A stretch of 30,152 bases of DNA, from positions 1-30,152 of the IMG/VR virus record IMGVR_UViG_3300042472_000148; one strand, given 5' to 3'. Both the position numbers and the translations under genes were made by a program. Below are positions 1 to 30,152 of this stretch, piece by piece. Each line of letters starts with the position of its first letter. Positions within the stretch are counted from its first letter, which is position 1. The stretch is from a virus. The notes beneath the pieces were generated by a model. That model did not search any database. It worked only from the letters and a program-made list of their open reading frames with translations, and was not told the origin of the DNA.

Positions 1-127
1 TCATGCGAGCAAGTACGTTTGAAGACGTGATAGCGTCAGTATACAAACCGATTACGTCATTGTCAGCACAAAGTTTTTTCATGTAACCATCACACAAAGA
101 CAAAACATCGTCTTCGCTTTCTGTGTC
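1..127. repeat. Terminal direct repeat, left copy (circular contig overlap)
   Basis: These 127 bases are identical to 30026-30152. The repeat lies inside the major capsid reading frame, which continues without a break when the two copies are merged. A length of 127 is a common maximum k-mer in short-read assemblers, so this is best read as the overlap of a circular assembly and not as a biological terminal repeat. The circular unit is 30,025 bp. Confidence 0.95.
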
Positions 128-541
128 GCCTTGCCAACGGATCAACTCTAGGTCGTTACCGATACGGTTAGCCATTTCGTTCCAATAGTAAGACATGAAA
201 GAAGCTACGGTAAAGTCGCCGTTTGAACCTTGGGACATTTGCAAAGCCAAGAAAGATTGCTCGAGGTCAAATTGACAAATTTGGCTCATGGCTGAAAGCG
301 CACATACGTCAATATCAATAGCATCAAGGCTATCACTAGGGGCAGAAAAGTTACAGTTAGACGGTGCAAGTAAGTTGCCAAAAGTAACGTTAGCCAATTT
401 AGTAGCTGACTTAATACCCGGCAATGTACGGTAATTGTCCGCAATGTCTTCGGTTAAATAAGCTTTTGAGTAGAACTCGTCTGGGTTAGGACACAGTAAC
501 GCGTTTGTTTCTACGTCTAGGTCAAATTTTAAATTTCTCAT
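1..541 (-). CDS. Major capsid protein, N-terminal part (gene cut by contig end)
   Basis: This part encodes residues 1-180 of a 308-residue protein beginning MRNLKFDLDVETNALLCPNP. The start codon (539-541) follows a run of eight A on the coding strand, a typical strong initiation context in Bacteroidota. The frame leaves at base 1 and continues at 30025 down to the stop at 29640. The protein should form the icosahedral shell (HK97 fold expected from family knowledge, not visible here). It lies directly after the protease-scaffold gene and is followed by a strong terminator, as expected for the most abundant virion protein. The N-terminal half is rich in Cys (residues 17, 63, 80, 88) and Met. 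The identification rests on resemblance to flavobacterial phage capsid proteins and on gene order. Confidence 0.75.
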   Translation of the reverse strand, partial: MRNLKFDLDVETNALLCPNPDEFYSKAYLTEDIADNYRTLPGIKSATKLANVTFGNLLAPSNCNFSAPSDSLDAIDIDVCALSAMSQICQFDLEQSFLALQMSQGSNGDFTVASFMSYYWNEMANRIGNDLELIRWQGDTESEDDVLSLCDGYMKKLCADNDVIGLYTDAITSSNVLARM

Positions 542-572
542 TTTTTTTTGGTTTTATTTTGTTTTTATTTAG

Positions 573-1538
573 TTACTTGTTTGATGCGCGGAACGCTTTA
601 AATTTATCGAACGCTGACATTTTAACGTCTTTTTCTAGTTCGATTTCTTCTTCATCTCTAGCTACGCCAATTTCCTCTACTTGATTTTTCAAGTCTGCGA
701 TCATGCCAATAATAGCGTTTACTTGTTCTTCGATGATAGGCATAACGACCGCTTTGATAGCTTCGGCGTCCGTAGCTGGGTCAACTGCCATAGCTACTTC
801 TTCTTCTACCACTTCTTCTTCGGTTACGCTAGTGTCTTCCATGGCTACTTCTTCGGTTTCTTCTTCTGTTACCTCGGCCATTTCTTCTTCGACTACTACG
901 TCTCTAATTTCGGTTACTTCTCCGTCTTTTACTACGTAGATTTTTCCGTCGATTGTGTGTTCTCCGTCTGGGAAATTCATATTATTTTGTTTTAAGTGTT
1001 TACTTAATTTCATTCCCAAAAAGCCCTCAATAGAAAAACCTATTTGTTCGTTTTTTACTAGCGTATTGTAATAGTCTACGTCGGTAACTTGGGCCGTAAG
1101 CATTAACGTTCCTTTAGGTACTTCAATACCGTAAGTTGTAAACGCTTTGTCTTGGGTTGGGTTTTCCACTATCCACGCTTCAAGAATGTACGCGGGTACT
1201 TCTTTTTCTGGATTGTGTTCTAGGTTAAAAACGTTTCGGTTCTGCAAGTCGCGCATAAACTTAACGTGTATTTGTTCGATTGTGTCCGTTTCAAATTGTA
1301 CATAGTAGTCGCCTTCTTCGTCGTCCTTACGGTAAATTTCCATAGGGATCATTGCGGGCGCCGTTACTCTATACTTTAACTCGTCGGCAAAGAAATGCTT
1401 TGTAACGTTTGAAAAAGCTAGGCCTTTTACTTTTATGGCTGGGTTTGAAGTGAACGCAATTTGTTCTATACCTAAATTCTCGCCGTCGGAATATTCCGGG
1501 TCGATTGTAATTTTGTAAATGGGTAAGTCGTTAACCAT
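573..1538 (-). CDS. Prohead maturation protease fused to scaffold (XkdF / S78_2-like)
   Basis: 321 residues. Residues 1-175 resemble the XkdF-like serine protease family: VFNLEHNP places a candidate catalytic His at 108, AWIVENPTQDKAF follows at 121-133, and GFSIEGF places a candidate Ser at 169. Residues about 210-255 are a very acidic Glu/Val/Thr repeat, followed by a predicted helix (about 260-290) and a basic tail. This matches a protease domain joined to a scaffolding domain that is removed when the shell matures. The gene sits 31 bp ahead of the capsid gene. The 44-bp gap on its other side separates it from a divergent plus-strand pair. The start at 1538 is supported by the leader AATATTGTTATG. 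The protease class is inferred from these motifs; the catalytic residues are not proven. Confidence 0.7.
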   Translation of the reverse strand: MVNDLPIYKITIDPEYSDGENLGIEQIAFTSNPAIKVKGLAFSNVTKHFFADELKYRVTAPAMIPMEIYRKDDEEGDYYVQFETDTIEQIHVKFMRDLQNRNVFNLEHNPEKEVPAYILEAWIVENPTQDKAFTTYGIEVPKGTLMLTAQVTDVDYYNTLVKNEQIGFSIEGFLGMKLSKHLKQNNMNFPDGEHTIDGKIYVVKDGEVTEIRDVVVEEEMAEVTEEETEEVAMEDTSVTEEEVVEEEVAMAVDPATDAEAIKAVVMPIIEEQVNAIIGMIADLKNQVEEIGVARDEEEIELEKDVKMSAFDKFKAFRASNK

Positions 1539-1557
1539 AACAATATTAAAAAAGTGC

Positions 1558-1565
1558 TATATTTG
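1558..1565 (+). promoter_or_regulatory. -7 box of promoter for the plus-strand gene pair
   Basis: TATATTTG matches the Bacteroidota -7 consensus TAnnTTTG perfectly and lies 17 bases before the start codon at 1583, so transcription would begin around 1570. No good -33 TTG is seen at the usual distance. The box sits in the 44-bp divergent gap. Confidence 0.55.
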
Positions 1566-1582
1566 TTCAAAAAATTATAGCT

Positions 1583-2122
1583 ATGGTAACCATTTTAAAC
1601 AAAGAAATTCCGAACGAATTAAACGAGTTGACTATCCAGCAATTCGAAGACATTACAGAAATTCACGCAAACCCAAAACTAGACCACGTAGAAAAACACC
1701 TAGAGGTATTTAAGTACATGGGCGTAGCAGAGGAAATAGAAGACGTAGACTTTGAAACATTTAAAGACTACATACAATTATTCAATACGGCAAAAGCCCC
1801 CGAAGGTATCTTATTAAAAAGGTTTGAGGCGGACGGGTATACATACCAAGCCTACGACGAGGAATGGAAGTTAAGCGCCAAAGAAACAAAGCTAATTGAA
1901 AAGATACTAAACAATAAACACAAAGGGTATATAAGCGAAGTGTTAGCGGTCTTGTTCAAACGCACGGACCTAACTAAAAACGAACACTACACCGACGCTC
2001 ATGTAAAATTAAAGTCCAAAATTATACGTGAACTACCAGCCGAGGTTGCCGTACCTTACCTAGTCGCCGTAGCCGAAACAATTAACAAACAAGTTCAAAG
2101 CTTAAATGAACCTACCGAATAG
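1583..2122 (+). CDS. Tail assembly chaperone candidate, first gene of an inverted pair
   Basis: 179 residues, acidic and helical, no membrane segment. It opens with IPNELNELTIQQFEDITEI, which parallels LPNSWHEVKLYQFKELRAL at the start of the next gene, so the two proteins share an N-terminal domain. A second domain (about residues 80-175) contains a YTYQAYDEEWKLS segment and ends in ELPAEVAVPYLVAVAE. Pairs of overlapping related genes near the tail genes are typical of tail assembly chaperones, but here they lie far from the tape measure and on the opposite strand. The gene overlaps its successor by 17 bases, in a different frame. The function is inferred from context; a head or neck role is also possible. 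Confidence 0.4.
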   Translation: MVTILNKEIPNELNELTIQQFEDITEIHANPKLDHVEKHLEVFKYMGVAEEIEDVDFETFKDYIQLFNTAKAPEGILLKRFEADGYTYQAYDEEWKLSAKETKLIEKILNNKHKGYISEVLAVLFKRTDLTKNEHYTDAHVKLKSKIIRELPAEVAVPYLVAVAETINKQVQSLNEPTE

Positions 2123-2888
2123 TTGGCACGAGGTTAAGCTATACCAGTTTAAGGAACTACGCGCACTTAAAGAATCTAGCGGGTTCTTTAATACACAACT
2201 AGAAACACTAGCTATTTTAGCGGACGTAAGTACGGACGAAATAGAGGAACTAACGCTAGAGGAAATAAGCGACTTATTTAGGTCGGTCAAGTGGGTGCTA
2301 CATGAGCCTAAAAAGGGCTTGTTTAACGAACTTTCGATAGGTAAGGAAACTTACCACTTACAACCTTTTAAGAAACTAACGCTAGACGAGTTTATAGACC
2401 TTGAATATTTCTTACAAAATGATTATCTAGTACATATTTCTCATATTGTTTCCGTGTTTTGGCGGCGTATAGACCATGACAAGTGGCAAAATGTACAATT
2501 TGAGCCGTATATATTTAGCCCGTTTGAGCGCCACGTACTATTTGACGACGTAGAAATAACAAAAGTCTACGGTATCTTAAATGAATACCTTAAATATCGG
2601 GAAAGTTTCATGCAAAAATACACGGCTTTGTTTAATTCAGACGACGAACCAGACGACGAAAAGCTAGACCCTAAAGACTTTGATAGCATAGCCGAATATA
2701 AAGACGAACTAAAGGCCCAAGAACAAAGTAAAAAGGCCCGCAAATGGGGGTGGGAAAGTTTAATTTACGACTTATGCGAGGGGGACTTTACAAAGATAAA
2801 AGCAGTGGGTGAACTGCCCTTAATTCTAGTCTTTAATATGTTAGCAATGCGTAAAGAACTAGGCTTAAACGAAACCTCTAAATTTTAA
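2106..2888 (+). CDS. Tail assembly chaperone candidate, second gene of an inverted pair
   Basis: 260 residues. The N-terminal part repeats the domain of the preceding gene (LPNSWHEVKLYQFKEL). The middle contains YHLQPFKKLTLDEFIDLEYF and ISHIVSVFWRR, and residues 175-215 form a charged linker rich in Asp, Glu and Lys. The start codon at 2106 overlaps the end of the upstream gene, with the sequence AAATGAA, so translation is probably coupled. A stop in this frame just before the ATG (2103-2105) rules out a frameshift fusion starting further upstream. The 3' end overlaps the convergent minus-strand gene by 24 bases. No enzyme motif is seen, and the chaperone role is a contextual guess. Confidence 0.4.
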   Translation: MNLPNSWHEVKLYQFKELRALKESSGFFNTQLETLAILADVSTDEIEELTLEEISDLFRSVKWVLHEPKKGLFNELSIGKETYHLQPFKKLTLDEFIDLEYFLQNDYLVHISHIVSVFWRRIDHDKWQNVQFEPYIFSPFERHVLFDDVEITKVYGILNEYLKYRESFMQKYTALFNSDDEPDDEKLDPKDFDSIAEYKDELKAQEQSKKARKWGWESLIYDLCEGDFTKIKAVGELPLILVFNMLAMRKELGLNETSKF

Positions 2889-3299
2889 AGCTGCGTTAAA
2901 GTCGCCGTCTATTGGTGCAAACGAATATATAATACTACGCTTGTCGCCTAAGATCCTAGCTACTTGTAAAATAGGATAGCGTTTTGTCATCCACTCGGTA
3001 TACTGCGCGTATATTTCGGCGGTCGTACCGTCGGCGTTTAGCCTATCGGTAAGCTTTGCACAAAGGTCGAAAGGTAACATATTAACCGTACCGTTATTTA
3101 GAAACCCAAAATAATACATAGCGTTTATTTGTATTTCTAGTTCGCCTAGCGCTGGTATTTGTGCGTTAATACGTATACTATCGTAAAGCGCCCCGGTGTC
3201 TATAAGGGCTTCCTCTGCAATTATGTTACGCAAAGTTCTTGCGATCTTATTACGTGTTTTGTATAGTACGTTGAATACGCCGTTATTCTTGTACGCCAT
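2865..3299 (-). CDS. HK97 gp10-like head-tail / tail completion protein
   Basis: 144 residues. A basic N-terminal helix is followed by IDTGALYDSIRI and AMYYFGFLNNGT. This combination of a DTG-x-L-x-x-S motif and a Y-x-x-F-x-N-x-GT motif is what I expect of gp10-like proteins that complete the head-tail junction or tail end. It overlaps the upstream gene by 17 bases and the convergent plus-strand gene by 24. It is the last minus-strand gene of the packaging-tail cluster, and no terminator is seen between the convergent genes. The assignment is moderate and based on short motifs only. Confidence 0.45.
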   Translation of the reverse strand: MAYKNNGVFNVLYKTRNKIARTLRNIIAEEALIDTGALYDSIRINAQIPALGELEIQINAMYYFGFLNNGTVNMLPFDLCAKLTDRLNADGTTAEIYAQYTEWMTKRYPILQVARILGDKRSIIYSFAPIDGDFNAALKFRGFV

Positions 3300-3648
3300 C
3301 TCCTAAAAATTGTGGTTCGTATGGAAATTCCTCGGTTGTTGCGTGTCCCGCAAATGCGTGTTTTGGGTTCTTTGGTTCTACCAAGTTTGCCCCGAAGTCG
3401 TATATCTCGGAACTCATTACATCGTAGTGGTAGCCATCAGCGTAAATAGGTGGGGTTACTATTTCCATTCCTTCCATTACGGGAGGAGTTAGCATAATCA
3501 AACCAATTTCTACAACTGCAGCTACTCCGTTTCCGTAGGCTTCGTGTTTTTCTCCGTTGAACTCAACCTCGATAAGTATGCCTTTGGCTTTAAGGTCTGC
3601 GAGTGCGGTGTCCTTGTTTTCGTATGTTAGTTTGAATATATTTTCCAT
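3283..3648 (-). CDS. Unknown protein downstream of the receptor-binding protein
   Basis: 121 residues starting MENIFKLTYENKDTALADLK. The start at 3648 is preferred over the upstream Met at 3702 because it lies 2 bases after the stop of the preceding gene and carries the A/T-rich leader TATATAACTATG. The longer version would run 52 bases into that gene. The protein has short hydrophobic strands, a Pro- and Met-rich middle (LTPPVMEGMEIVTPP) and an aromatic C-terminal half. I do not recognise it. Its place after a receptor-binding-type gene suggests a fibre accessory or small virion protein, but nothing in the sequence proves this. Confidence 0.65.
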   Translation of the reverse strand: MENIFKLTYENKDTALADLKAKGILIEVEFNGEKHEAYGNGVAAVVEIGLIMLTPPVMEGMEIVTPPIYADGYHYDVMSSEIYDFGANLVEPKNPKHAFAGHATTEEFPYEPQFLGDGVQE

Positions 3649-3650
3649 AG

Positions 3651-5366
3651 TTATATAGTTGTGAGCGTGGCTAATTGAGTATTCGTTAGGCGAGTTTTCC
3701 AAAGGGCAAAAGATTTTATTTTGCGAGTTGTATAGAAGTCATTAGTTGCCCTACCATTAAAACGAACCGCTGACATACTGCTCGGAATTGCAGATGTTGT
3801 TGATAGAATTTGAACTCCATTTCTATACATTACAAAAGTAGTGCCCGTATATGCAATAGCGATTTTGCCATCAGATGCAGAGGTTGTTGAAAGCGCCGTA
3901 ACAATAGTACCACTTGCAGCTAAAAATAAACCTAAATAACCCGTTCCAAATTCCCGATATAATACAATTCGGTTGTCATTTGTTCCGTTGTCGATAGTTA
4001 AACACGGAATATCTAATTCGATAAAATCTTCCAAGTCAACAAACAAAGTCCCCTCTGTTTGCCCTATAAGCGAACTAATACCAGTCTTTGATATAACATC
4101 TGCGTTTCGTGTTACACTTGCTGAGGTTGTAGGTATGTAGGAGGTAGGGTATGCGCCCGCTTCTATTTGTGCGCCCCAAAAGAATAAACTACCACCTGCT
4201 ATAGGAAAGCCAATTGATGCTTCAGCGTAAACTACAACGGGAATAGGTGCGGTAAGAATACATCTAAACCATCCATTATCTACGCTTTCAATTTTGCCAC
4301 TTGTTCCACTTCCACTAAATGGAGTAGCGGTTTGAGTTGTTAAATCAAAGTTTGCACCCCAAACTCCTACTGGAGTACCAATCAACATATTAAATGCACT
4401 TTGTGTGTCAGCTTTAGCGTAAACAGAATAACTAAACGAATTATTTGTAATAGCGGATACTACTGCGGTTGGATATATATATGAGTTTGTATTTGTAAAA
4501 GCAATTTTATCAGCTGACATAGTCCCGTTAGGTGCAGTTGTATTATTTGCGAATGCAGTTATACCTATCTTACCCCAGTCAGAATTATCAAAAGACGAAC
4601 TATAAGTAAGTAGGTTAGTCCTCTGCGGTTCTACTAACAAACTTGGACAAGTTCCATTTGAGTAGTCAAGACGTGGGATGTTAAGTCTTGTTTCCGTCTT
4701 TTGGTAGGGTTTGATTGTACCCTCGTTAAGTTGTGCGCCCCATAAAAACACGGAGGCACTCAAAGAGTTTGTTTCTGCTCTGCCCGCAGTTGAACTTGTA
4801 ACAAGACAAAAGTTTACATATTTAGAAGATGCTGAACCAACTACAAATGAGCAACGATACCAACCATTTCCTACGCTTTCAATAGACGAACTAATTACAC
4901 TTGAACCAACGCTACCCGTTGTGCCATTAGCAAGGTTAAAGTTTGCAAAGTCAGTGTTTACGAAGTCAGTATAAATCTGCAAAAAGTCATTTGTGTTCTT
5001 TTTAGCATAAACCGAAATTGTATTCCCCACACCAATTACGTCAGTTTGCCACAAAACAATGTGCAAGTCGCTCGCTCCGTTACCCGAAAAAGTGTCAGCG
5101 GTCAAAGTTCCATTTGGTGCAGTTGTAGTGTTTCCCGTTATTGTACTTGCTCCTTTCAGCCAAGATGCGTTTGTAAAGTCTTCGGAGTATCCAATCAAAT
5201 TATAAGGCACTAACTCAACCAACCCCGCAGAGTTTACTCTTGTTGCAGTTGTTGCTCTTACAACGGACATATCGCCCGAACCATCGGACGGAATAACGGA
5301 ATAAAGTTTGCCTTCTTTGTACCCGTTTGGTGTTACTATTAATGAAGCGGTATCTAATAGGCTCAT
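3651..5366 (-). CDS. Receptor-binding / tail fibre-type protein with duplicated domain and LamG-like C-terminus
   Basis: 571 residues, rich in Ser, Thr, Asn and Gly. Two copies of a carbohydrate-binding-like unit are visible. Copy 1 (about residues 60-225) and copy 2 (about 250-415) each contain N-x-S/D-W, TTTAPNGT or NTTAPNGT, SVYAK, a GNGWYRC or DNGWFRC segment, and FLWGAQLN or FFWGAQIE. Copy 2 ends AYPTSYIPTT. Residues about 440-571 resemble a laminin G or concanavalin-like beta sandwich (GTLFVDLEDF early, SFALWKTRLTNTQLATL at the end). Such proteins bind cell-surface glycans at the tail tip. The start at 5366 overlaps the preceding gene by 4 bases. Synonymous codon choice looks different from the neighbours, hinting at exchange of this module; this was judged by eye only. 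Confidence 0.6.
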   Translation of the reverse strand: MSLLDTASLIVTPNGYKEGKLYSVIPSDGSGDMSVVRATTATRVNSAGLVELVPYNLIGYSEDFTNASWLKGASTITGNTTTAPNGTLTADTFSGNGASDLHIVLWQTDVIGVGNTISVYAKKNTNDFLQIYTDFVNTDFANFNLANGTTGSVGSSVISSSIESVGNGWYRCSFVVGSASSKYVNFCLVTSSTAGRAETNSLSASVFLWGAQLNEGTIKPYQKTETRLNIPRLDYSNGTCPSLLVEPQRTNLLTYSSSFDNSDWGKIGITAFANNTTAPNGTMSADKIAFTNTNSYIYPTAVVSAITNNSFSYSVYAKADTQSAFNMLIGTPVGVWGANFDLTTQTATPFSGSGTSGKIESVDNGWFRCILTAPIPVVVYAEASIGFPIAGGSLFFWGAQIEAGAYPTSYIPTTSASVTRNADVISKTGISSLIGQTEGTLFVDLEDFIELDIPCLTIDNGTNDNRIVLYREFGTGYLGLFLAASGTIVTALSTTSASDGKIAIAYTGTTFVMYRNGVQILSTTSAIPSSMSAVRFNGRATNDFYTTRKIKSFALWKTRLTNTQLATLTTI

Positions 5367-5734
5367 ATATCAAATGAATTTAAAGTAATTTCTAAACAAG
5401 TTTCGGCCTCGAATACACCGCCATCGGTGGCTATCCTATCCATAAAGATTTCTATAAGGTCGGCGTTCGCTTCTATTTGTAATGCAAGGGCTTGAATCCA
5501 CGATCCATTAACGGGACCCGTTGCCCCAAAGTCTTCGGCTAACGCTTGTATCCATGCCTCGCCTACCTCTTTGTTTACATCAAAGAACTCGCACAAAGCC
5601 TCTAGCCAAGTGCCGTTTACTGTTTCCGTTATTCCGTAGTGCAAGCAAATAGATTGCCATAGGTTGGCGTCCACGTCTGGCGCTAGTAAGTCGTGCGCTA
5701 TTGTATGGAGCCATGATTGATTATAGATAGCCAT
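5363..5734 (-). CDS. Trp-repeat protein with C-terminal DGG motif, probable tail component
   Basis: 123 residues. Five imperfect repeats have Trp at residues 8, 26, 43, 61 and 79, a spacing of 17-18 residues. The clearest units read NGTWLEALCEFFDV, EAWIQALAEDFGATGPV and NGSWIQALAL. The C-terminus contains DRIATDGGVFEAETCL, which closely matches RVTTDGGTFEAPGCL at the N-terminus of the large tail protein encoded at 8237-11074. It starts at 5734 behind the recurrent leader AATATAGTTATG and overlaps the receptor-binding gene by 4 bases. Position and the shared motif suggest a tail tip or fibre-attachment role; no family name can be given. Confidence 0.65.
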   Translation of the reverse strand: MAIYNQSWLHTIAHDLLAPDVDANLWQSICLHYGITETVNGTWLEALCEFFDVNKEVGEAWIQALAEDFGATGPVNGSWIQALALQIEANADLIEIFMDRIATDGGVFEAETCLEITLNSFDI

Positions 5735-5747
5735 AACTATATTAAAT

Positions 5748-6197
5748 TTACTCTTCGGGTTGTTTTAGCGGTACGGCGCAGTCGGTCCAATTATTAACGC
5801 AGAACGTTGCCGACATAACCCAACCCGCTGCATAGTCTAGTAGGTCGTTATTAAGTGGGGTAAAGGTAGGGGCGTCCACAAAGTCAAAGTTATAATTTGT
5901 CGAATTTATAAAGTAAGTGAACAAGTCGTATAGTATTTGTTGGCAGTCGGACAAAATTACGTTAATGTTTGCACGGTCTTTTTGTATTATGTCGAAACAA
6001 AAAATATCTAGTACAAAGTCGTTCGTGTTTTCGGTGGCTAAAGCGCTTACTGGAACTATAAAAACAATAGGGTACTTTTCGTCTTTGGTAGCAAAGTTAG
6101 TCATTTGCTCTTGAAAGTCCGAACCGACCTTATGAACTTGAACATGGTTGTTATAAAAGTCCGTTATTTCGTTTATTAGTGCTTGGTAACTTGTCAT
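5748..6197 (-). CDS. Tail terminator-like protein (tentative)
   Basis: 149 residues, no signal peptide or membrane helix. The N-terminal part is helical (ALINEITDFYNNH), then strands with YPIVFIVPVSA, and the protein ends in DYAAGWVMSATFCVNNWTDC. A length near 150, a central hydrophobic strand and an AGWV segment before the C-terminal strand are reminiscent of tail terminator or tail completion proteins of other siphophages. It overlaps the tape measure gene by 4 bases (ATGA), which implies coupled translation. Without structure prediction the assignment stays weak, though the gene itself is clearly real. Confidence 0.4.
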   Translation of the reverse strand: MTSYQALINEITDFYNNHVQVHKVGSDFQEQMTNFATKDEKYPIVFIVPVSALATENTNDFVLDIFCFDIIQKDRANINVILSDCQQILYDLFTYFINSTNYNFDFVDAPTFTPLNNDLLDYAAGWVMSATFCVNNWTDCAVPLKQPEE

Positions 6198-8221
6198 AAT
6201 TCGGAGCCTTTTTTAATTTTATCTATTTTGTTTTGTGTGTTCGTTATGTCGCTTTCGCTTACGATAGCTTGCACAACTATGTTTTGTTGGGCGGTTACGC
6301 TTTGCGGTTGGCCTACGGTGTTTAATTGGTTGCCTTGTCCGAACATTTGCGTAGCTGGTGTTAAAGGTGTAACGCTAGTATTTGATGGCGACGAACCACC
6401 ACCACCGCCACCACTTACGGACCCGCTAGGGTTACTTAAGAGTTGCTTTGCCTTTACCATGTTAGTAGTAATTTGCAAAATACCGCTAGCAAATTGTGCG
6501 ACACCCGCTAGACCACCAGTTACGCCGTTTAATGCGTTAGACTGCGACGCGGCAACAAGTGAACTAATTGCTTTGGCCGTGTCTATTCCTATTTGAACAA
6601 GGGCGCTAGCTTTGTTTATCTTTTCTAGTTTCTTTTGGTCTTTAGTTACTAGGGTTGCTATGTTTGCAAATGCATTTGCGTAGTCGCCTACCATAGATAT
6701 TTTAGCGTCGCGTACTTGTTTGGCTTTTTCTATTTCATCTAGTGCCTTTGCTTTTGTGTCGGCCGCTACCTTGTCGTTTATAGCTTTTATTTCCGCTGCG
6801 CGTTTTTCCTCTAAAACTTTGGTGTCCATGCCGTATTGTTCGGCTAGTGCTATAAGTTCAAAATACTTTGTTTGTACGGCGTCTATTTCGCGTTCTGCGT
6901 CGGTCATTTTTAACTGGCGCATTTGCTCTTCGAAGTCTTCTTGTTTTTGTAGTTGCGTGTTTTCGTTGTCTTTAATTTTTTGCGTTATTTGTTCTTGTCG
7001 TTTAGCATCTGTTTCGGCTTGCGTTTTTGCGGCTTTATCTAGTTCGGCTTGTTTCTGGCTTTCGTACAATGCAGTTAAACGTACCTTTTCCTTACCGTTT
7101 AGGTTTTCGTTTTTCTTTACGTCTTCAATTAGGCGTGCGTACTTTTCGTTTAGTGTAGCTAGTTCGCGTTCGTCGTCGTTTGCAATCAATGCTATTTCAA
7201 TATCCTTTATACTGCGCTCGGCGTCTAATCTGTTCTTGGCGTAGTTCTTTGCGTTGTCCGTTCCTTTCGATGCGGTTTCTTTTTCTTTAGTTTCTTTTTT
7301 GGCGTTGGCGTCTATTTCTATAAGTTGGCGTTCCTTACGTCCGTCTTTTAATATTTTATTTTCAGCGTCTATTTGTTCGCGTAGTTTCTTACGGCGTTCT
7401 AGGTTGTCTTTGCTAGCTATCTTTTGTAGTGCTGCGTATTCTGCTCTTTGGTCTTTTAGTCGCTTGTCTGCCTCTTTACTTAAGGCTTTACTCTTTGCTA
7501 TTTCTAAAGCGCTTGTATCTTTGCCCGCCGCTTTCGCTTTGGCTATTTCTATGTCGTAACTATCCGCTATTTTTTCCGAACGCTTTTGTGAACTTGCCGC
7601 GGCCTTTTCGTTAGCCTTGGCCATTTTATCCGCGTTCTCTTGCGCGGCGTAATTGGTTAAACCCATATAGTCGGTAAGTTGTTTAAACCCGTCTATAATT
7701 GCGTTAATGGGTGCCATTAAAACTTGTAAGACTTTATCTAGTACGCCTATTTTATTTAGGAAAACACCGATACCTACTACTATGGCAGTAATAACGGCCG
7801 CCAATAAAAAGATAGGGTTAGCTAGAATTTGAACACCCAGCTTAACAAACGCACCGCCAACGGTTTTAACTACACTTGTAAGGCCTTTTAGTGCGCCGCT
7901 TATTTCGGCTTTACCTACGGACCCCAAGGTTTTAGCGAATACTTGCGCCTTTTCCGCTGCGCCCTCAAAGTCTAAACTAGCTAGGTCGGCTTGGATCATG
8001 CCAAATGAATTGCTTACCGCCTCAAACTTTGAACCCGCGTTAAATACGCTTACTTGTTCGTTTACGTCTTTAAGCTTATCGGCTAGTTGTCCCGCCTTTT
8101 GGGCTAGGGCTTGCATAGTTTCCGGGTCGGTTGCGTTGGCTATTGCACCTTTTACCGCTTTTAGTTCGGCTTTAATTTCGGATATGCCCGTAAGTTTTAG
8201 TGGTATCTCAACTGTATTCAT
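6194..8221 (-). CDS. Tail tape measure protein
   Basis: 675 residues, very rich in Ala, Lys, Glu and Gln. Residues 1-100 form amphipathic helices. About residues 120-165 are hydrophobic, with a transmembrane-like stretch ILANPIFLLAAVITAIVVGI. Residues about 190-520 form a long coiled coil, a second hydrophobic Ala/Gly-rich part lies near 545-610, and a poly-Gly/Ser linker (SGGGGGGSSPS) near 620 precedes the C-terminal tail. This architecture is diagnostic of tape measure proteins, which fix tail length and sit inside the tube. At the usual rule of about 0.15 nm per residue the tail would be roughly 100 nm. It starts behind the leader AATATAGTTATG at 8221. Confidence 0.85.
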   Translation of the reverse strand: MNTVEIPLKLTGISEIKAELKAVKGAIANATDPETMQALAQKAGQLADKLKDVNEQVSVFNAGSKFEAVSNSFGMIQADLASLDFEGAAEKAQVFAKTLGSVGKAEISGALKGLTSVVKTVGGAFVKLGVQILANPIFLLAAVITAIVVGIGVFLNKIGVLDKVLQVLMAPINAIIDGFKQLTDYMGLTNYAAQENADKMAKANEKAAASSQKRSEKIADSYDIEIAKAKAAGKDTSALEIAKSKALSKEADKRLKDQRAEYAALQKIASKDNLERRKKLREQIDAENKILKDGRKERQLIEIDANAKKETKEKETASKGTDNAKNYAKNRLDAERSIKDIEIALIANDDERELATLNEKYARLIEDVKKNENLNGKEKVRLTALYESQKQAELDKAAKTQAETDAKRQEQITQKIKDNENTQLQKQEDFEEQMRQLKMTDAEREIDAVQTKYFELIALAEQYGMDTKVLEEKRAAEIKAINDKVAADTKAKALDEIEKAKQVRDAKISMVGDYANAFANIATLVTKDQKKLEKINKASALVQIGIDTAKAISSLVAASQSNALNGVTGGLAGVAQFASGILQITTNMVKAKQLLSNPSGSVSGGGGGGSSPSNTSVTPLTPATQMFGQGNQLNTVGQPQSVTAQQNIVVQAIVSESDITNTQNKIDKIKKGSEL

Positions 8222-18312: not shown

Positions 18313-18342
18313 CAAATATATAAAGATATTCCGATATACAAA
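18313..18342 (-). promoter_or_regulatory. Promoter for the recombination genes (TTTG-N18-TATATTTG)
   Basis: On the minus strand the -33 element TTTG (18339-18342) is followed after 18 bases by TATATTTG (18313-18320). Both match the Bacteroidota promoter consensus. Transcription would begin near 18307, leaving a short A-rich leader before the ERF start codon at 18282. Confidence 0.75.
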
Positions 18343-29639: not shown

Positions 29640-30152
29640 TTAGTCGAAACAAACGTTATAAACAACAATTTGTGAAGGGTTCGTATAGTGGAAACCAGCT
29701 TTCAAGTTCGCACGTGTACGGATATAAGGCTCAGCAACTGAATCAGAAAGGTTAACCGCTTTCAATGCTTTAGCGTCGCCCTCTGCGTCAAACGCATAGA
29801 TAAGGTCTGTCTTTAACGCGAGTACCATTGTGTTAACTGGTGCGCCAGATGCAAGAACAATTTTAATACCTAGGAAAGTAGGTGCTAAAGGTGCAGTAAC
29901 GAATGTTAAAGTGTTACCAGATGCAGCAGCAATTTGGTAGTTTACAAAAACGTCGCTAGAAACAAACAAACGAAGGTCGCCACGTAAAGCTTGTACAGCC
30001 GCTGGTGAACTTTGAAGTACCGTAGTCATGCGAGCAAGTACGTTTGAAGACGTGATAGCGTCAGTATACAAACCGATTACGTCATTGTCAGCACAAAGTT
30101 TTTTCATGTAACCATCACACAAAGACAAAACATCGTCTTCGCTTTCTGTGTC
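29640..30152 (-). CDS. Major capsid protein, C-terminal part (gene cut by contig end)
   Basis: C-terminal part of the capsid gene that starts at 541. Bases 30026-30152 duplicate 1-127, so the unique portion is 29640-30025 and the intact gene is 927 bp. Recognisable features are the segment reading ALKTDLIYAFDAEGDAKALK and the following TRANLKAGFHYTNP, a pattern I associate with the C-terminal half of capsid proteins from Bacteroidota siphophages. The first Met that remains in this fragment (30128) is internal to the protein and is not a real start. A perfect GC-rich terminator follows 28 bases after the stop. Confidence 0.75.
   Translation of the reverse strand, partial: DTESEDDVLSLCDGYMKKLCADNDVIGLYTDAITSSNVLARMTTVLQSSPAAVQALRGDLRLFVSSDVFVNYQIAAASGNTLTFVTAPLAPTFLGIKIVLASGAPVNTMVLALKTDLIYAFDAEGDAKALKAVNLSDSVAEPYIRTRANLKAGFHYTNPSQIVVYNVCFD
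30026..30152. repeat. Terminal direct repeat, right copy (circular contig overlap)
   Basis: Exact copy of bases 1-127. Removing it and joining base 30025 to base 1 restores one uninterrupted capsid gene across the junction. Confidence 0.95.

Follow-up and report, generated by a model that had tools for sequence, protein, structure and literature searches.

In a 30,152-nucleotide (nt) virus genome from IMG/VR (record IMGVR_UViG_3300042472_000148, positions 1 to 30,152, referred to below in its whole length as the window), two overlapping genes, here called P1 and P2, are very probably the short (G) and long (GT) tail assembly chaperones, carried as separate duplicated genes that have been inverted and have their own TATATTTG promoter. 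Most tailed phages produce a short and a long chaperone from one gene by a programmed ribosome slip, which in GT adds a C-terminal T domain. At the level of sequence, P2 matches the frameshift product encoded by identifiable relatives and P1 matches the unshifted G, the two are separate open reading frames (ORFs), and both their orientation and their promoter box are conserved. We infer a chaperone function for P1 and P2 from the frameshift hallmark in these relatives together with synteny.

The correspondence with G and GT emerges from profile alignments (hhalign). P2 aligned with the conceptual frameshift product GT over 236 columns at an E value of 7.4e-29, collinear through the slip point, whereas its alignment with unshifted G stopped at column 161 (E 1.4e-15). 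P1 matched G at E 1.2e-9 and GT at E 2e-10, with both alignments ending at P1 residue 162-163. When the profiles were split, the C-terminal part of P2 matched the T part (Table 1) and P1 gave no match to it (E 0.13). As controls, the GT alignment was reversed once and shuffled by column five times, and nine further structural families of the phage were compared; all scored E 0.01 or worse. No in-frame heptamer of T (TTTTTTT, hereafter T7) was present at the homologous slip site in 75 P1 and 77 P2 sequences, and the only in-frame T7 in sequences of the window clade lies at P2 codon 26, in nine of them. As in a chaperone pair, a short and a long form share an N-terminal part and only P2 has the T domain. 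A long form made by -1 frameshifting, which also marks such pairs, is missing from the window clade, where P2 is one ORF; one short gene and one in-frame long gene replace the frameshift, as in the T4-like type.

That P1 and P2 are paralogues had been proposed in an earlier note on this DNA, from a motif, I/L-P-N-x(3)-E-x(4)-Q-F, which is indeed found in both proteins (IPNELNELTIQQF; LPNSWHEVKLYQF). The proposal is supported: the two family alignments match collinearly along 120 columns (E 8e-5 in one direction, 3e-4 in the other), and the Foldseek lists obtained with the predicted models (P1 pLDDT 80.6, P2 pLDDT 79.1) overlap in a viral structure library. Both lists include I6R9M9 of Nonlabens phage P12024S, a protein of 175 amino acids (aa), which is the length of gp38 of that phage.

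P12024S is a true distant relative of the window phage, since its protease (5e-17), portal (2e-25), TerL (1e-32), fibre (1e-71), tube (2e-9) and homologues of window genes g8237 (5e-7) and g11067 (2e-7) all match. Its gp38 comes right after TerL on the tail strand; the 55-aa ORF gp39, read in the -1 frame, is similar in sequence to the C-terminal end of P2, and the overlap of the two frames contains a run of nine Ts. The two genes (L126:23136-23830; PHROG 32199 and 38404) look like halves of one frameshifted chaperone, and gp39 has probably been mis-annotated as a separate, hypothetical gene. The link to gp38 came first from the structure search and then from the larger G family; gp38 was missed by hmmsearch with P1 and P2 against P12024S, hattifnatt, 6H and PM116P4, and the few weak P2-profile matches in these phages (best E 3e-4) fell in ill-fitting ORFs. 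Two scans of genome contigs yielded no relatives, and tblastn against named phages gave no match for P2 and one weak match for P1. Another candidate, hattifnatt gp66, which lies beside the tape measure gene, was rejected: it turned up only in near-identical Flavobacterium phages, and no link to P1 or P2 was found.

A wider sample of relatives was obtained by a TerL-anchored scan of IMG/VR, which gave 80 loci. A downstream ORF of at least 150 aa was present at 71 of these, and setting aside two without the motif (L189 and L194) left 69 for a first frame test, which is biased because its loci had been chosen in advance by the presence of a K-W-x-W-like motif in the -1 frame; one of them (L156) was mis-called, the real G lying further down, and another (L220) held only a fragment. 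At 68 of the 69 an in-frame heptamer occurs in the G/T overlap; by codon position, in-frame T7 was counted at 68 of 3,912 in the overlaps against 3 of 35,814 elsewhere. The P2 C-terminal profile also found the -1 frame in 68 of the 69, and no other frame and no shuffled sequence. As these loci had been chosen by motif, all 80 were then tested anew with two independent profiles, one for each half (N and C) of P2 (E ≤ 0.01). Both halves were found at 63 loci, and in every one they were on the same strand, overlapping, in the -1 frame and with an in-frame T7 in the overlap; the remaining 17 had the N half only (six), the C half only (six) or neither (five). GT-profile matches were obtained at 77 of the 80 loci, none of them on the opposite strand. 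We predict from these patterns that the relatives undergo -1 frameshifting at T7. The suggestion that the pair might be tail assembly chaperones is thus supported by relatives that encode the same protein as a G/T pair, in the -1 frame and with a T7 slippery site. Their supposed uncoupling from the tape measure gene and from the classical frameshift can be put more sharply than was claimed, P1 being the counterpart of G and P2 that of the frameshift product GT.

Gene order links the two arrangements. In the relatives, G/T is followed by a homologue of window gene g5748 (best E 3.5e-14; 56 matches at E ≤ 0.5), and homologues of g11067, g8237, the tape measure gene and the protease lie further down. 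One locus (L156) has, on one strand, TerL, g5748, a neck-like gene, G/T, g11067, g8237, the tape measure gene and the protease, with the T7 site present; its neck-like gene is named by position and sequence, the window neck profile matching at E 0.09 only. The order g5748, neck, chaperone at this locus agrees with the window, which keeps the same succession but has it behind the tape measure gene, with the chaperones turned round. The stretch L156:11249-12889, with its window-like order yet a single strand and a frameshift, is a useful intermediate. In P12024S, an opposite-strand block also lies between the tape measure gene and the protease (L126:32360-35572), and it holds small hypothetical genes and a methyltransferase where the window has inverted P1 and P2.

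The inversion is shared by a whole clade. Loci were pulled from IMG/VR by P1 and P2 queries, their alignments and one distant clade member, so that each was collected through one or other of the two genes, which bears on the co-occurrence count: both genes are present at 196 of 200 loci. The other four (L063, L079, L081 and L125), where one gene was not found in the available stretch, were dropped. None of the 196 breaks the strand pattern, and they collapse to 111 distinct P1-P2 DNA sequences. Wherever the contig includes the protease (109 distinct sequences), the pair faces the other way, and the same holds for the neck gene in all 105 sequences that have it. P1 and P2 follow in tandem with a frame offset of +1 in 111 of 111, overlapping by 14-38 nt in 110 and by 158 nt at one locus, and the gap between P1 and the protease is also short in 109 distinct relatives. 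Among these sequences three lineages can be told apart: that of the window, the L088 type (57-60% identity to the window in P1 and 39-41% in P2) and the L240/L241 type (46-49% and 47-50% to the nearest query). The comparison of the inversion in related phages, called for by the earlier note, gave a divided answer, as the clade keeps the pair opposite to protease and neck while in distant relatives the gene runs in the same direction as the tail genes, which comes close to a pattern that the note had named as refuting. Because the latter hold one frameshifted gene, we regard the inversion as a property of the clade, and the claim stands.

In 110 of the 111 distinct sequences the box TATATTTG, a putative Bacteroidota-type promoter element (-7 box), stands 19-26 nt ahead of the start of P1, the exception being L231, where the P1 match starts at the contig end. 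Its core is invariant in the listed variants, and the surrounding bases vary. The window has six copies, four intergenic and in gene orientation and two inside genes, the latter both on the plus strand. The other intergenic copies, at 18313, 22212 and 24121 on the minus strand, are candidate promoters of other transcription units. No conserved minus-strand TANNTTTG site was found in the divergent gap or within P1 and P2 (best position, 28 of 109). With no visible conserved promoter there for the protease, the opposing late transcript probably runs through P1 and P2.

The layout described by the earlier note was reproduced in full (Table 1). P1 and P2 are the only plus-strand genes in the window, all others in the list of coding sequences being on the minus strand; they overlap by 17 nt in different frames (2106-2122), the box falls within the divergent gap, and P2 converges on the neck-like gene of the tail side with a 24-nt overlap (2865-2888).

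Table 1. Coordinates of P1, P2 and neighbouring features in the window
Feature	Position	Strand	Remarks
Prohead protease gene, divergent from P1	573..1538	-	Pfam Peptidase_S78_2, 1e-9
Divergent gap, protease (-) / P1 (+)	1539..1582		44 nt
TATATTTG, putative -7 box of Bacteroidota-type promoter	1558..1565	+	then TTCAAA
P1, probable short tail assembly chaperone (G form)	1583..2122	+	179 aa; hhalign to G family and GT
P2, probable long tail assembly chaperone (GT form, one reading frame)	2106..2888	+	260 aa; hhalign to GT
P2 N-terminal G-like part, residues 1-175	2106..2630	+	N-half vs GT N-part, E 9e-18
P2 C-terminal T-like domain (KWGWES...FNMLAMRKEL, about residues 204-255)	2715..2870	+	vs T part, E 1.8e-12
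Convergent neck/tail-completion-like gene	2865..3299	-	phrog_5 (tail completion or Neck1), E 0.006, weak
Tape measure gene	6194..8221	-	PHROG 339 tape measure, 5e-6

The 127-nt terminal direct repeat of the window (1-127 and 30026-30152) indicates a complete circular genome of about 30.0 kilobases (kb), in which the coding sequences tile all but 1,180 of the 30,152 bases of the record, and the major capsid gene spans the record's cut point. The protease gene also matches PHROG 1530, labelled DNA methyltransferase (2e-8), a label that may be wrong for the protease domain. A large minus-strand ORF at 3651-5366 matches the phage head spike fibre domain NF048003 of NCBIfam (E 1e-68) and P12024S gp10 (E 1e-71); it has 32-51% identity among near relatives, is often undetected there, and is likely a variable fibre locus. 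The 6H protein R9VW65 was likened to gp10 by length alone. At the junction of P2 and the neck-like gene, a simple scan did not establish a terminator (5 sites in 1-6000 against 6.0 expected).

These findings suggest how the pair may have arisen and may work. In the frameshifting relatives, most ribosomes would make G from the single gene, and a minority would slip by -1 at TTTTTTT and add the T domain. In the window clade, the gene would have been duplicated, P1 keeping G only and P2 carrying G and T fused in one frame; neither retains the T7 site at the slip point. The pair is inverted between neck and protease, where its own conserved TATATTTG promoter, presumably active, would drive it; transcription from this promoter may also yield antisense RNA, as the earlier note proposed. 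By their likeness in form to the lambda proteins, both may bind the tape measure protein, and P2 may also bind the tube protein through T. Translation of the two overlapping ORFs, which may be coupled as P2 starts 14-38 nt before the end of P1, would determine the ratio of G to GT. A further idea, which we consider possible though on the unlikely side, is that a ratio once controlled by frameshifting has been turned over to transcription and translation, such that tail assembly would be dosed and timed by the promoter of an inverted, independent operon and by the operon's collision with the antisense transcript of the head-tail genes.

Other readings of the pair need to be weighed. The window alone is a single metagenomic record, and its inversion might be an artefact of assembly or a recent rearrangement of one genome; as it is common to 111 distinct sequences from at least three diverged lineages, with P1 identity down to ~46%, we give this explanation practically no weight. 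P1 and P2 might instead be regulators or early proteins unrelated to tail assembly. Phage regulators are often placed divergently with their own promoter, as this pair is on the opposite strand, and no annotated chaperone profile matches it. However, the full-length profile match to a G/GT frameshift pair encoded between the terminase and tape measure genes, and the absence of any DNA-binding family among the matches of our profile searches, make such a role very improbable. It could also be that the relatives' frameshift is real but that P1 has diverged and is no longer G, leaving P2 as the working chaperone. The match to G is weaker for P1 (E 1e-9) than for P2 (E 1e-15), and between the window and the L088 type it is now P1 that is better conserved, suggesting another constraint. 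Nevertheless, P1 stops soon after the slip point, without T, as G should, and the two genes stay together at nearly all clade loci, the four departures each having one gene missing in the stretch, although the loci were gathered by either gene. We therefore consider it improbable that P2 acts alone.

Several observations count against identifying P1 and P2 as the G and GT chaperones. Classically, chaperone genes directly precede the tape measure gene and share its strand; here that gene is 3.3 kb from P2 on the opposite strand, and the pair sits between neck and protease. Direct similarity between P1 and P2 is modest. The P1 model resembles the HK97 tail assembly chaperone 2ob9_B weakly (VIA Z 3.0, 66 residues, root-mean-square deviation 3.7), with a score tied with unrelated folds and not above background, and for the P2 model Foldseek gave no convincing PDB match (none below E 4). 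Neither P1 and P2 nor the G and T of the relatives match any named chaperone model in Pfam, PHROG or NCBIfam, and the PHROGs that do match G and T, 32199 and 38404, are both of 'unknown function'. The frameshift in the relatives is itself a prediction. Profile searches of PHROGs, Pfam and NCBIfam with P1 and P2 returned nothing significant, and a sequence search of solved structures returned chance-level matches only.

As in lambda gpG/gpGT and other frameshifted chaperones, the window encodes a short protein and a long form with a C-terminal T domain. In lambda, both forms bind the tape measure protein, T binds the tube protein, and the two forms stand in a ratio of about 30:1 (PMC5009743). 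Lambda and the P12024S-like relatives share the same -1 arrangement at a slippery site, whereas the window has two ORFs, no T7 at the slip point, the opposite strand, its own promoter and a position away from the tape measure gene. P12024S gp38 and gp39 are homologous to the G and T halves of the window pair, but make up one gene that adjoins TerL on the tail strand, with T in the -1 frame and a T7, and not two inverted ORFs. Vladimirov, Gautam and Davidson reportedly described, in 2022, T4-like phages in which the short and the long chaperone have a gene each. Separate genes of this kind are known from some T4-like phages, according to one account (PMC10885494). The likeness there is one of gene organisation; the window genes overlap in tandem, are inverted and have identified frameshifting relatives. 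Some Microbacterium phages also seem to express chaperone ORFs separately, and for cluster EA the excerpt of that paper gives two ORFs with no evident frameshift and states no duplication of the G part or inversion (PMC7302621). Our literature search, which covered titles and the starts of abstracts and left most subscription papers outside its coverage, found no chaperones inverted relative to the tail genes. The new part is thus the inversion with its own promoter, separate short and long genes having a precedent in T4-like phages.

The G/GT frameshift is among the most conserved recoding events in tailed phages, and its fixed ratio is thought to be important for tail assembly. Since the window clade has abandoned the frameshift and identifiable relatives have kept it, the two can be used to test whether the ratio needs recoding or merely two dosed proteins. 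These results also identify the apparent tail chaperones of many aquatic phages, a large group that lacks annotation and probably infects Bacteroidota.
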